A DNA stretch of 64,000 bases from Noviherbaspirillum sp. Root189 (GTDB lineage: Bacteria; Pseudomonadota; Gammaproteobacteria; Burkholderiales; Burkholderiaceae_D), in the NCBI RefSeq assembly GCF_001428545.1, contig NZ_LMHZ01000001.1, positions 124,961 through 188,960 of the forward strand. The letters run 5' to 3'. The notes under the pieces were generated by a model. It did no database searches and was not told the DNA's origin. It saw only the letters and a list, made by a program, of their open reading frames with translations. Of this stretch, positions 24,763-30,979 are shown piece by piece. The stretch's first letter is position 1, and every line of letters begins with the position of its first letter. A program made the translations under genes and the position numbers.

Positions 24763-25050
24763 TCAGCCTTTTTTCAGGCAAGCGCTCATAAACTTCTTGC
24801 GCTCGTCGCCAGTCTTGCCCTTGGCCTCGGCATTGCAGGATTTCATCTTGTCCTGCTGTGCCTTCTGCGCTTCGCTGACTTTGGGTTTGCTGCTCAGGCA
24901 GTCTTTCATAAAGGCCTTGCGCTCATCGCCCTTCTTGTCGCCGGCATCCTTGTTGCAGGTTGCCATCTTGTTTTGCTGCTCGGTCGCCGCGAATGCCGGC
25001 TGCAACAGCATGGGAAGTACGAGCGCGAGTGCGCCTGCAAGTGCTTTCAT
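24763..25050 (-). CDS. psiF: PsiF-family periplasmic protein
   Basis: 95-residue exported protein. The signal peptide ends at LLQPAFA. Two PsiF repeats follow (QQNKMATCNKDAG..GDERKAFMKDCLSS and QQDKMKSCNAEAK..GDERKKFMSACLKK), each with a conserved cysteine pair, four cysteines in total. In E. coli psiF belongs to the phosphate-starvation set downstream of phoA; its function is not known. Here it stands alone, with no Pho box recognised by eye. Confidence 0.9.
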   Translation of the reverse strand: MKALAGALALVLPMLLQPAFAATEQQNKMATCNKDAGDKKGDERKAFMKDCLSSKPKVSEAQKAQQDKMKSCNAEAKGKTGDERKKFMSACLKKG

Positions 25051-25400
25051 GGTTCTCTCCTGGTGGTACGTTTTTTAGAGTTATCGTCGACCTTGCGGTC
25101 AACTAAATTACAGCACACTTCCGGAAGCAGATGCAGCCGCTTCACTGCTTATTTGACGTCACGGCAGCAGGAATAGTGCCGCCATGGATTTGCGATTCCT
25201 CATTGTATTGTTGAGTTTGCAATAAAAAGGCCAGCAGGAAGGTCGATAGTTGGGACCAGTTGGGACTAAGGATTGAAGATCGCCCGACTAGGCTTAGTCG
25301 GGTGCCGGGATGGGAAGACGGCAACATGCAGCCATCGCTCGAAACACGATAGCTATCGTAGTCGCCGTAGTGACGGTAGCGACAAGAATGGCAGATTGGA
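25051..25400. other. non-coding left flank of the trfA locus
   Basis: 350 bp without a gene. It contains an 8-bp perfect hairpin (CCCGACTA-GGCT-TAGTCGGG, 25284-25303), a short direct repeat AGTTGGGAC x2 near 25250, and an inverted iteron copy at 25331-25350 (listed separately). Confidence 0.6.
25331..25350 (-). repeat. inverted iteron copy downstream of trfA
   Basis: The minus strand reads ATCGTGTTTCGAGCGATGGC, matching the iteron consensus CGT-6nt-AGCG found upstream of trfA but in the opposite orientation. It lies 50 bp beyond the trfA stop codon. Confidence 0.75.
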
Positions 25401-26351
25401 TCAGGCAGTCAGCTGCGCGACTTGTTGGGCACGCGTTGCACGCACCACGGTGACAACATCTGTCATCGGATCAATCTTCCAGGACTTAAGAAAGCCCTGC
25501 TCGACCAGCAAGTCGAGTGCCTTCTTCAAACCATTGCGGAAATGGTAGAGCTGCTGCGCTGAAGAACCACACAGGCCCTTCAAGGTTTCGACCTTGTAAC
25601 CAAAGGGTTCGCGGTGGGTAAAGTAAAAACCATGCAGCCACTTCGCAAGCGGTGATCGCAATTTCAAGCGCTGGCGCCAGTCCAGCTGGGTATAGGCATC
25701 AGCGCCGAACAGTGTGATGAGCTTCGGATTAAGCCTGACCTTCCACTGCCGGTCGGTCTCATCCTTGAAGGTAAATTCCTGCACCAGCGTACCGCCGTAA
25801 CCACGCTTGCCCGAACCAGCATCAAACCGGATCTCCACCGCATTGGCGGTCAGGCGCAGAATGCACAGGCGCAGGCGCTCATAAGAGGGGGAAGAGGTCG
25901 GCCAGCCCATGGACTTGAGCATTGAATAAGCGGTGAAGGACACCTCGTGACCCAGCGGCTGGCTGCGCGCCAGATGGACCAGATTCAGGAATACGTCTTC
26001 GTCGTCCTGGCGCAGTTCCTCGCCGGTATAAAAGATTTCGACACCCTTGACCGAGGTGATCGGCCTTTCCTTCAGGTGCTGACGCGGCTCGTTCTGGCGA
26101 GCGACACTGAACAGGGCGGAGCGCGCGAGAGGATTCGGTAAGCCGCGTACCTGATTTTCCCACAGAGGCAACTGGATAATATTGAGCACCTGCTCGACAT
26201 CGCGGCGGACCGCATCGGCCGACACATCATCACTCGGGTCCAGACTCATCTGGACCTGCCGGCCGGTGCCCTTGCGCTTGGCAGCGAGGGTTTCCTCGAT
26301 TTTTTGCAGCGCATCGCTAAGCGGCTTGTGCTTGATCCCTGTCGGCGGCAT
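25401..26351 (-). CDS. trfA: TrfA-family replication initiator
   Basis: 316-residue homologue of TrfA, the iteron-binding initiator of IncP plasmids. Diagnostic blocks are NPLARSALFSVARQNEPR, YTGEELRQDDEDVFL, HLARSQPLG, TAYSMLKSMGW, RQWKVRLNPKLITLFG, YTQLDWRQRL and the C-terminal GLKKALDLLVEQGFLKSWKI, which span the paired winged-helix domains. ATG 26351 is preferred. The frame stays open to 26579, but that part translates iterons (LERRW, DPRSR, DPRSK). IncP TrfA itself exists in long and short forms, so both starts may be used. No partition, mobilisation or ssb gene is nearby. The surrounding genes are chromosomal. Confidence 0.9.
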   Translation of the reverse strand: MPPTGIKHKPLSDALQKIEETLAAKRKGTGRQVQMSLDPSDDVSADAVRRDVEQVLNIIQLPLWENQVRGLPNPLARSALFSVARQNEPRQHLKERPITSVKGVEIFYTGEELRQDDEDVFLNLVHLARSQPLGHEVSFTAYSMLKSMGWPTSSPSYERLRLCILRLTANAVEIRFDAGSGKRGYGGTLVQEFTFKDETDRQWKVRLNPKLITLFGADAYTQLDWRQRLKLRSPLAKWLHGFYFTHREPFGYKVETLKGLCGSSAQQLYHFRNGLKKALDLLVEQGFLKSWKIDPMTDVVTVVRATRAQQVAQLTA

Positions 26352-26398
26352 GTCATTCCATCCATTTTCGTTGTCAGGAAGCAAGGTATCACGCCTGT

Positions 26399-27060
26399 GG
26401 ACGTATCCCGAGCGTGAAGCGTCGTCGTTGTAGCGTTGAAACACGTATTTCGAGCGTGGGTCGAGCAGCGATTGTGATGAATAAATAGGCACTCCATCGT
26501 TTCTCGAGCGTGGGTCCGCGCACTGAATGCTGTCCGGAGATGGCCATCGTCGTTCGAGCGTGGGTAAATCCCTTTTCAACCTCCCTGGAGCGACAGAAAT
26601 TGGAACCTTAGACAGGTATTGACCAGTGTGGTGAGCAGCATCGGTATCGTATTTCGAGCGTGTACAGCGCGAGCGTCCCTTTGTTGGGGTTCAGCACACG
26701 TATTTCGAGCGAGGCAGACGCCAGTCAATGCCCCAATTATCGTTGTTCCAGCGTGGTCAAAACATGTTCTATCGTGTACCGAACGAGGTGAACTGCGGCT
26801 CTCAAACGAAATTCCTCGTTTTTCGAGCGATGAAACCAGCGAAAACAAAGGTATTGATCGCGATGTCTTGTATCGGACACCAAAACTTCAGCCCTTAAAC
26901 CCGTTTTTGCGGCGCTGGCAGATAAAAATTATCGTGTTTGGAGCGTGGATACCCATCGTTCCCCAACCGTTGAGACACGTCGCTCGGGCGAGCATGGCGC
27001 GTTCGTGGAGCGTGTGATGCTCGTTTGTGGAGCGCGTCAGACACGTATCTCGAGCGCAAA
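26399..27060 (+). repeat. iteron cluster upstream of trfA (putative origin)
   Basis: About 17 direct copies of a ~20-bp element with best form ACACGTATTTCGAGCGTGGG (core CGT-N6-AGCG). Starts are near 26399, 26420, 26441, 26496, 26546, 26646, 26696, 26738, 26770, 26814, 26899, 26930, 26954, 26975, 26997, 27019 and 27041. The last six are phased every 21-24 bp, two helical turns, as in iteron origins. Others are spaced 33-100 bp apart. Several copies are degenerate (26420, 26899, 26954). They should be binding sites of the adjacent TrfA-like protein. Confidence 0.85.
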
Positions 27061-27130
27061 AGATTGAGAATAAATTATTTAAAATCAAATACCTACAAGT
27101 CTTTTTCAGCTGCTTAATCTGGTTTTAATC
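27061..27130. other. AT-rich stretch next to iterons (possible DNA-unwinding element)
   Basis: About 70 bp beginning AAAGATTGAGAATAAATTAT are markedly AT-rich compared with the surroundings and abut the phased end of the iteron cluster, where origins place their unwinding element. No clear DnaA box (TTATNCACA) was found by eye. Confidence 0.45.
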
Positions 27131-27150
27131 TTTGTAATCGACGAAGCAGC

Positions 27151-27170
27151 AACGCTCGAAACACGTGCCT
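27151..27170 (-). repeat. inverted iteron copy at outer edge
   Basis: The plus strand reads AACGCTCGAAACACGTGCCT, the reverse complement of an iteron (CGTGTTTCGAGCGTT). With the copy at 25331 it brackets the trfA/iteron locus in inverted orientation. Confidence 0.75.
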
Positions 27171-27188
27171 TGATGTGCCAAAGGGCAT

Positions 27189-27267
27189 GGAGGGAATAGA
27201 GGGAATGGAGGGAATGGAGAAATATCTATGCGCTCAGAATTAAGGCGATAGTTGATAGTTGATAGTT
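27189..27267. repeat. two short tandem arrays
   Basis: 27189-27219 holds (G/A)GAGGGAAT three times plus a partial copy. 27247-27267 holds three exact copies of GATAGTT. Both lie between the inverted iteron and the FkbM-type gene. Confidence 0.85.
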
Positions 27268-29094: not shown

Positions 29095-29170
29095 TGGTGC
29101 GGCTGGCGGGGATCGAACCCACGACCCTTGGCTTCGGAGGCCAATACTCTATCCACTGAGCTACAGCCGC
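29095..29170 (-). tRNA. tRNA-Arg (anticodon CCG)
   Basis: The minus strand folds as a full cloverleaf. The acceptor GCGGCTG pairs with CAGCCGC; the anticodon stem TTGGC/GCCAA encloses loop CTCCGAA with anticodon CCG (decodes CGG); the T-arm has GTGGG-TTCGATC-CCCGC. The discriminator is A and the CCA is encoded (29095-29097). Confidence 0.96.
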
Positions 29171-30079: not shown

Positions 30080-30979
30080 ATGAGCAACGCACACAACGAA
30101 CACGAATCCGTTATCAAGACGCCGAAGCAGCTGGTCGCTGCTGTGATTGCCGCGTTCCTGATACCGATTATTTGCATCATCCTGCTGGTTCAGTATGTCT
30201 CCAACGAGTCAAAATCGGGGGCCGGTTCCGACAGCCTGGCACCGGAAGCGGTCGCCGAGCGTCTCAAGCCGGTGGCCGATGTCGGCTTCACGCTGAAAGA
30301 CGTCAACGCACCCAAGGTTCTGCAAACTGGGGAAGCTGTTTATAAAGCTGTTTGTGCAGCCTGCCACACGACCGGGGCCGCGGGCGCGCCAAAAACTGGC
30401 GATGCTGCCGGATGGTCGTCACGTATCAGCCAAGGCCAGGCCACGCTGGTCGAACATGCGATCAAGGGCATCCGTGCCATGCCTGCCAAAGGCGGCAACC
30501 CGGATCTGGACGATGTGGAAGTCGAACGCGCCGTAGTCTTCATGGCGAATCAGTCGGGCGGCAAACTGAAGGAGCCGGTCGTCAAGGAAGCTGCACCGGC
30601 GGCCGCTTCGGCAAATGCTGCACCCGCAGCCAGCGAAGCAGGTGCACAGACCGCATCGGCTACCCAACCGTTAACCTCCTCGCCGTCGCAGCAAACGCAG
30701 GCACTAGCCGCAGCCGCTCCCGCAGCAAAAGCAGACGGCAAGAAGGTCTTTGACGCAAGCTGCGCAGCCTGCCACGGCGCAGGCGTTGCAGGTGCACCGA
30801 AGGTTGGCGACAAGGCGGCATGGGCACCACGCATCCAGCAAGGTTCCGCAACGCTGTACGAACATGCAATCAAGGGCTTCCAGGGCAAAGCCGGTATGAT
30901 GCCTCCGAAGGGCGGTTCCTCCGCATCGGACGAAGAAGTCAAAGCTGCGGTCGACTACATGGCTGACGCAAGCAAGTAA
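30080..30979 (+). CDS. membrane-anchored di-haem cytochrome c (c5-type)
   Basis: 299-residue protein. An uncleaved N-terminal helix (residues 17-40) anchors two class I cytochrome c domains separated by an Ala/Pro-rich linker (about 165-215). The haem motifs are CAACH at 92-96 and 228-232. The likely axial methionines lie in RAMPAKGG and GMMPPKGG, and both domains share the AGAPK.GD..W..RI.QG block, so they are internal duplicates of the c5/CycA type. It likely passes electrons between the bc1 complex and terminal oxidases. Start ATG 30080 with GAGGGAAT upstream. It is convergent with an OmpA gene across a bidirectional terminator. Confidence 0.92.
   Translation: MSNAHNEHESVIKTPKQLVAAVIAAFLIPIICIILLVQYVSNESKSGAGSDSLAPEAVAERLKPVADVGFTLKDVNAPKVLQTGEAVYKAVCAACHTTGAAGAPKTGDAAGWSSRISQGQATLVEHAIKGIRAMPAKGGNPDLDDVEVERAVVFMANQSGGKLKEPVVKEAAPAAASANAAPAASEAGAQTASATQPLTSSPSQQTQALAAAAPAAKADGKKVFDASCAACHGAGVAGAPKVGDKAAWAPRIQQGSATLYEHAIKGFQGKAGMMPPKGGSSASDEEVKAAVDYMADASK

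Follow-up and report, generated by a model that had tools for sequence, protein, structure and literature searches.

A probable orphan TrfA-type plasmid replicon retained beside tRNA-Arg(CCG) in the chromosome of Noviherbaspirillum

The stretch of DNA analyzed here (the window) comprises 64,000 nucleotides from Noviherbaspirillum sp. Root189, bases 124,961-188,960 of a 382,673-bp contig (NZ_LMHZ01000001.1) in a genome of 6.15 Mb, and it harbors a gene for a TrfA-family replication initiator together with an array of iterons and an AT-rich stretch, collectively referred to below as the module (Table 1). The open frame of the initiator (25401-26579, minus strand) matches the Pfam profile PF07042 at 9.5e-36 (123.7 bits, against a cut-off of 22), with a second, weaker match to RPA (PF10134, 2.1e-7). 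This frame is free of stops and, with a profile score above the cut-off, belongs to the TrfA family; it encodes 316 amino acids from a conserved ATG at 26351 and runs on upstream to 26579. The gene is the single PF07042 match in its own genome, and its product is 85-96% identical to those of seven other module loci. A sequence search of the PDB with TrfA returned nothing relevant, and a structure prediction (predicted local distance difference test score, 40) was not used. The clamp-binding motif that RK2 TrfA presumably carries (QLSLF) has a loose likeness here, QMSLD, that is not kept in one relative (G013), and nothing is drawn from it. Relatives are denoted by name or handle: G000 is this genome, G001 is N. 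aerium, G003 is N. autotrophicum, G008 is N. malthae, and G037 is Keguizhuia sedimenti (hereafter Keguizhuia).

The motif CGT-N7-GCG occurs 16 times in forward orientation, on one strand, in the 1,015 bp upstream of trfA, against a mean of 0.29 and a maximum of 3 in 200 mononucleotide shuffles. Because one of the 16 matches overlaps its neighbor, we count about 15 forward iterons, and with two inverted copies (at 25333 and 27150) the total is about 17. Six of these are direct repeats phased at 21-24 bp, the second of them degenerate, and form a core beside the initiator gene. The three gene-proximal iterons probably cover the trfA promoter, the location of which is putative; a promoter scan upstream of trfA gave no sigma-70 match. 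In an alignment of nine modules, counted without one of the N. aerium copies, 16 iteron columns are common to at least four genomes, and 10 of the 16 are filled in all eight. Iteron positions, including most of those of the seven wider-spaced copies, match across the relatives although the spacers have diverged. The mean column majority is 0.80 in and around iterons (127 of 290 columns invariant) versus 0.58 in other columns (34 of 424), a contrast that is inflated because the iteron columns were chosen by the motif itself. The inverted iteron past the trfA stop also occurs in G010, N. malthae, N. aerium, and Keguizhuia, and was not seen in N. autotrophicum, G013, and G004 at the score used. 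Just past the module lies a short GA-rich 9-bp tandem repeat (window positions 27182-27217), which was not seen in the aligned relatives.

Abutting the phased core, the AT-rich stretch is a candidate DNA unwinding element with three TAATC repeats (at 27113, 27124, and 27134), so placed that an AT-rich element with short repeats adjoins the iterons. Within it, TTTAATCT is the same in all nine aligned modules, and the third repeat reads TAATC in this genome, G010, N. malthae, N. aerium, and Keguizhuia. The motif TTTAATC-N2-8-TAATC has only two occurrences in 1.54 Mb of Noviherbaspirillum chromosome, both inside modules. It recurs at 14 of 31 other TrfA loci, on three of four plasmids and at 11 of 27 genomic loci, and is probably an unwinding-element signature of TrfA-family origins generally. 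The motif often has CTAATC ahead of it (e.g., L207:3371, L209:5346, and L176:2564). A preliminary description of this DNA had proposed a TrfA-type initiator that sits in the chromosome with an iteron origin of its own, on the grounds of an intact 316-residue homolog, about 17 iteron copies of which six are phased, and an adjoining AT-rich stretch. At the level of sequence this account is borne out in each of its parts, by the profile match and conserved ATG, by the motif count and coordinates, and by the composition of positions 27060-27150 (70% A+T).

Table 1. Features of the module and its surroundings, in window coordinates.
Feature	Coordinates	Strand	Remarks
Small conserved protein	24766..25050	-	Borders the trfA side in four genomes
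Single inverted iteron	25333..25351	-	Just beyond the trfA stop
trfA	25401..26351	-	TrfA-family replication initiator, 316 aa; PF07042 9.5e-36; identity to relatives in text
Three iterons, 21-bp spacing	26399..26459	+	Directly upstream of the trfA start
Seven wider-spaced iterons	26495..26832	+	Starts 26495, 26545, 26645, 26696, 26738, 26770, 26814
Phased core, six iterons	26930..27059	+	21-24 bp phasing; starts 26930, 26954, 26975, 26997, 27019, 27041 (spacings 24, 21, 22, 22, 22)
AT-rich candidate DNA unwinding element	27060..27149	.	70% A+T; abuts the phased core
Inverted iteron	27150..27168	-	Closes the module on the far side from trfA
tRNA-Arg(CCG)	29095..29170	-	3' end faces the module; integration hot spot
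Cytochrome c gene	30080..30979	+	Adjoins tRNA-Arg(CCG); marker of the orthologous site

The surroundings of the module are chromosomal. The gene model of the window holds 44 open reading frames of at least 170 aa, and Pfam searches covered 36 of the 43 besides TrfA and one smaller frame. These screened products are housekeeping proteins (argS, aceK, uvrD, rdgC, etc.) or are without a Pfam match, and no partition, relaxase, or transfer family was found among the 37, with seven frames and the small ones lying outside the screen. Within that scope, the ordinary chromosomal neighbors and absence of par, mob, and tra genes reported earlier are confirmed, and the contig does not present the partition, control, and transfer backbone that defines an IncP-1 plasmid.

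In all eight genomes that carry the module, its iteron end faces the 3' end of a tRNA-Arg(CCG) gene, at distances ranging from 240 bp (N. autotrophicum) up to ∼27 kb (G004); in N. malthae, trfA and the tRNA are on separate contigs, and the tRNA contig carries the remainder of an array. Both flanks of the module are common to this genome and N. aerium, the cytochrome c flank is common to N. autotrophicum, G013, and Keguizhuia, and the other flank is common to N. malthae, G010, and G004. For the small protein of the latter flank, we assume a PsiF-like label. A separate plasmid or a misassembly was rejected, given one orthologous site in eight genomes, one of which is a single 4.72-Mb contig; the separate plasmid contig that the preliminary description had named as contrary evidence was thus not seen.

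Beside the same tRNA, G013 and G002 encode a protein that contains DUF6538 and matches Phage_integrase below threshold, and the islands there carry an attachment (att)-like repeat in which 29 or 30 bp of the tRNA end recur (the islands extend over L016:434-8294 in G013 and from L059:10452 to L060:1375 in G002). The module as part of such a present-day island was considered and rejected: in G013 it begins ∼240 bp past the 29-bp att-like repeat of the island (L016:8266-8294), and N. autotrophicum, where the module begins 240 bp from the tRNA, has no island. Between these two stretches, island to module and tRNA to module, only 29 bp by the tRNA end still align (86%). An integrase and att repeats bounding the module, as in an integrative conjugative or integrative mobilizable element, were not found, and the att repeat of the G013 island lies outside it.

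The distance from trfA to dnaA is ∼147 kb in this genome, 154 kb in G010, 218-222 kb in N. aerium, 241 kb in G013, 103 kb in Keguizhuia, and, on the assumption of a circular contig, ∼245 kb in G004; the two genes are on different contigs in N. malthae. Proximity to oriC was rejected as a sign of function because trfA also lies 2-3 Mb from dnaA in N. autotrophicum, and the tRNA/cytochrome site is ∼138 kb from dnaA in G007 as well, which lacks trfA.

Of 15 Noviherbaspirillum genomes, seven have PF07042. Across 392 evenly sampled genomes of the family, TrfA matches reach E 1e-20 or better in 24, of which eight (the seven Noviherbaspirillum and Keguizhuia) group at 86-100% identity and the other 16 stand at 45% or less. 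Among 399 genomes of the order, 18 match, the 17 besides this genome at no more than 48% identity. The 72,556 plasmid records of PLSDB gave 641 TrfA matches, all below 60% identity (the top-ranked at 50.6% over 239 aa, or 61% of the query), and no match to the iteron array DNA; phage records gave no TrfA match. The tRNA/cytochrome or flank regions of seven of the eight trfA-lacking genomes hold no array, and at a score of at least 14 bits they have one isolated iteron-like site (18.2 bits, in G012).

Two genomes, N. malthae and N. aerium, have two tandem copies of the module, 2,355 and 3,159 bp apart, respectively, and the first N. malthae array runs off the contig end. The repeated unit in N. 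aerium (∼1.7 kb) extends from within 1-2 bases of the far inverted iteron to the final codons of trfA, limits that mark a natural boundary of the module. Between the copies are ∼1.45 kb in N. aerium, encoding a protein that by eye resembles an AraC-type regulator, and ∼0.6 kb without an evident gene in N. malthae. The tandem copies are located at L021:7569-12450 (N. aerium) and L020:1-3675 (N. malthae).

The synonymous distance (dS) of trfA between this genome and the others is 1.2-1.8, similar to that of its neighbors, for which it is 1.2-1.7 (methyltransferase), 0.9-1.1 (small flanking gene), and 1.0-1.8 (cytochrome c). In the close pair of N. aerium and N. malthae, the trfA dS of 0.36-0.38 is slightly below the 0.46-0.71 of the neighbors. 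The ratio of nonsynonymous to synonymous distance (dN/dS) is 0.02-0.07 for pairs with this genome, 0.04-0.10 for pairs with Keguizhuia, and 0.035-0.15 for the rest. The gene is thus under purifying selection and appears to have long been kept intact, and a recent or decaying insertion is ruled out by its high dS and low dN/dS. Between Keguizhuia and this genome, protein identity is 89% for TrfA and 66% for cytochrome c. A TrfA protein tree and a three-gene species tree of the same eight genomes agree except in the placement of Keguizhuia, which stands beside N. autotrophicum, G013, and G004 in the former (76%) and beside G004 in the latter (95%); a trfA nucleotide tree joins it to G010 at 71%. 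This near-match is consistent with vertical inheritance accompanied by losses.

Among known systems, the oriV-TrfA replicon of RK2/IncP-1 plasmids shares the initiator family. Like the module, RK2 presumably has extra iterons outside its core, and we take its iteron sequence to differ from the one found here. Passages of PMC4081077 describe an RK2 origin with iterons beside an AT-rich unwinding element that has short repeats, as in the module; these are 13-mers with the consensus TAAACnTTnTTTT, where the module has TAATC repeats instead. Unlike RK2, the module is chromosomal, has no clear DnaA boxes in six of eight genomes, and has no backbone genes among the screened frames. The carrier of the top-ranked TrfA in PLSDB, a plasmid of Cupriavidus metallidurans ZM16 (NZ_CP090528), shares the TTTAATC..TAATC motif, and its iteron consensus CATCGGTAGAAGCACGATA agrees at 16 of 19 positions with the most similar window iteron, CATCGCTCGAAACACGATA at 25333. 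On this plasmid, the module matrix gave 13 matches of at least 8 bits, against a mean of 1.8 and a maximum of 5 in 30 shuffles; positions are known for six of the 13, one of them outside its array. It differs from the module in its size (106 kb), in a MipZ-annotated gene beside trfA, and in about half of the TrfA residues.

Chromosomally integrated elements with TrfA or another iteron replicon, namely yicC-specific elements and Salmonella genomic island 1, are described in PMC8409611 and PMC7826253, and integrative elements carrying TrfA also in PMC9035990. Those elements keep integration or transfer genes and move, whereas the module stands bare and was apparently passed on vertically. Three genomes of a different genus in the family (G211, G373, and G385) have, within ∼1 kb 3' of tRNA-Arg(CCG), a TrfA 37-41% identical to that of the window; in G373, a single 6.39-Mb contig, it is part of an integrative element that encodes TrbL and a tyrosine integrase and is bounded, ∼10 kb off, by a 52-bp repeat of the tRNA-Arg(CCG) end. 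The G373 element spans ∼10 kb at L211:122-10199, and at this tRNA two other genomes of that genus have a TrfA that is 94-97% identical. Another TrfA gene adjoins tRNA-Pro(CGG) near a contig end in G288 (L213:8019-9582), which suggests that TrfA elements use several tRNA genes.

A second parallel is the fused chromosome of Vibrio cholerae NSCV2, in which, according to PMC6284228, ori2 was silent, yet functional in isolation. There, too, a plasmid-type origin shares one chromosome with oriC (ori1 and ori2), but a whole second chromosome was fused, in particular strains, and the origin is of P1 type rather than TrfA type. Among the matches listed in a literature search that covered few subscription journals, no vertically inherited chromosomal TrfA replicon was found.

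We consider it probable that the module is an orphan TrfA-type replicon that derives from an element integrated at tRNA-Arg(CCG), has been inherited vertically and kept by selection, and is self-limited and mostly silent as an origin. The basis is an intact protein, a conserved array and AT-rich motif, a shared site, purifying selection, and no excess of sites elsewhere (see below). Of the options in the preliminary description, a silent integrated plasmid captures the likely origin of the module and is incomplete beyond that, since the module is old, apparently vertical, and under purifying selection rather than recent or decaying. In the course of events we propose, a TrfA element would have entered the chromosome of the common ancestor of Noviherbaspirillum and Keguizhuia at tRNA-Arg(CCG) and then lost everything but the initiator gene and origin, with several later losses of the module; the TrfA integrative elements of the G373 type are the parallel from which we infer such an ancestor. 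TrfA would bind the iterons and, on the gene-proximal copies, may repress trfA as in iteron plasmids, while the many iterons may titrate TrfA and pairing of iteron-bound TrfA may hold the origin off. With enough active TrfA on the phased core, the TAATC element would melt and a replisome would load. In the normal cycle, the module would be copied mostly passively by forks from the dnaA origin and would fire rarely or under special conditions, rare firing being proposed because of the strand polarity described below. Candidate benefits include rescue of replication when DnaA-dependent initiation fails and exclusion of related replicons.

Several observations weigh against this interpretation. 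No att repeat (a repeat of the tRNA end of at least 13 bp) is left in the window. Eight of the 15 genomes of the genus are without the module, which is therefore dispensable. Deep nodes of a 16-genome species tree are weak (23-48%), so the losses above are called several without a number, and the module may also have been re-acquired at this site. The third repeat of the AT-rich stretch reads TAATT or TAATG in G013, N. autotrophicum, and G004, where the strict TTTAATC..TAATC motif is incomplete. DnaA boxes (at most one mismatch) are absent in and near the module in six of eight genomes, so that boxes like those of the RK2 origin are wanting in this genome; they are present in the N. aerium and N. 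malthae modules, and two of four plasmid TrfA origins, the top-ranked one included, also have none. Lastly, in this genome and in G010 the cumulative GC skew climbs from the vicinity of trfA in the direction of dnaA, as it also would with a firing origin.

The preliminary description also offered a domesticated DNA-binding regulator and proposed a genome-wide search for the iteron. With up to two mismatches, TCGTNNTTCGAGCGTGG occurs at 18 sites in the whole genome, 10 in the module and 8 elsewhere; all six sites with at most one mismatch are inside the module, and the eight outside all have two. The reversed-pattern control gave 18 sites, which the eight do not exceed, so there is no genome-wide excess outside the module; a regulator with a regulon is therefore disfavored and was rejected. 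Beyond possible self-regulation, the regulator option is thus unsupported. What would be left of it is a TrfA without a replication role, whose array only controls its own gene or local DNA structure. The iterons do reach the trfA start, and the missing DnaA boxes and patchy presence noted above would suit such an autoregulator, but the phased core and the TTTAATCT element, which repression could dispense with, are conserved too, and other target sites are lacking; we regard this alternative as unlikely.

Were the module instead an active secondary origin, firing in a sizeable share of cell cycles, chromosomes would have two origins, and the origin parts do appear intact. Strand polarity was assessed with GGGNAGGG, which we take from Escherichia coli as the FtsK-orienting polar sequence (KOPS). 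In 20 sampled 20-kb stretches of the complete G013, its polarity is 25:2 on one arm and 3:16 on the other, with the switch near dnaA. In the interval between dnaA and trfA, 36 of 46 KOPS-like motifs point away from dnaA (p 8e-5; 8:5 in this genome, 15:4 in G013, and 13:1 in G010), and in the trfA-proximal half 15 of 20 do so (p 0.02); the counts are 34 of 54 beyond trfA and, past dnaA in the opposite direction, 13 of 23 in the expected orientation, which is not significant. The GC skew speaks in part for such an origin. In G010 the cumulative curve has its minimum 10-20 kb from trfA and falls again towards dnaA, and in this genome it is flat up to trfA, then rises and then falls towards dnaA, with a positive four-fold-site skew over 40 kb on the dnaA side of trfA. 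The skew is weak, noisy, and inconsistent across three genomes, and occasional firing at trfA may therefore take place. Because KOPS-like polarity runs away from dnaA, the main origin is placed near dnaA, and trfA is not a dominant origin. A secondary origin of the dominant kind is accordingly disfavored by the strand-polar motifs, a minor one may exist given the GC skew near trfA, and frequent firing is, in our judgment, decidedly unlikely.

It is very unlikely that the resident TrfA and iterons serve to block incoming TrfA replicons by incompatibility. In favor of this, TrfA elements of another genus use the same tRNA-Arg(CCG), and the ZM16 plasmid has similar iterons; against it, the module matrix was scanned over 12 other TrfA loci, and 11 of these gave only 0-4 weak-or-better matches. 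A minimal mobile replicon that still leaves the chromosome, multiplies as a small circle, and rejoins by recombination is highly improbable, as the tandem second copies and patchy presence that might suggest it are set against an ordinary tandem duplication that accounts for the copies (with an assembly effect possible in N. malthae), the lack of a flanking tRNA-end repeat of at least 13 bp, a chromosomal site that is always the same, a near-vertical tree, and no close match among the plasmid records.

The general view is that a bacterial chromosome uses a single origin and that a plasmid origin integrated into it would be silenced, do harm, or soon disappear. The parts of the orphan replicon and its family are already known; to judge from the sequences, what is new is that a chromosome has long retained a bare plasmid replicon, apparently by vertical inheritance and under selection. 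The module lies 100-250 kb from dnaA in most members, and a more speculative extension, which we regard as rather unlikely, is that it acts as a conditional second origin of plasmid type with its own initiator, older than the genus split and used, e.g., when initiation through DnaA is blocked, which would amount to a natural and stable integrative suppression. Selection seems to have preserved the parts of the replicon at a single location in two genera, the remainder of the element having been lost. With natural pairs of genomes that have and lack the module, these harmless environmental bacteria of soil and water allow two questions to be tested directly: what lets a chromosome tolerate another initiator system, and what the chromosome gains from it.

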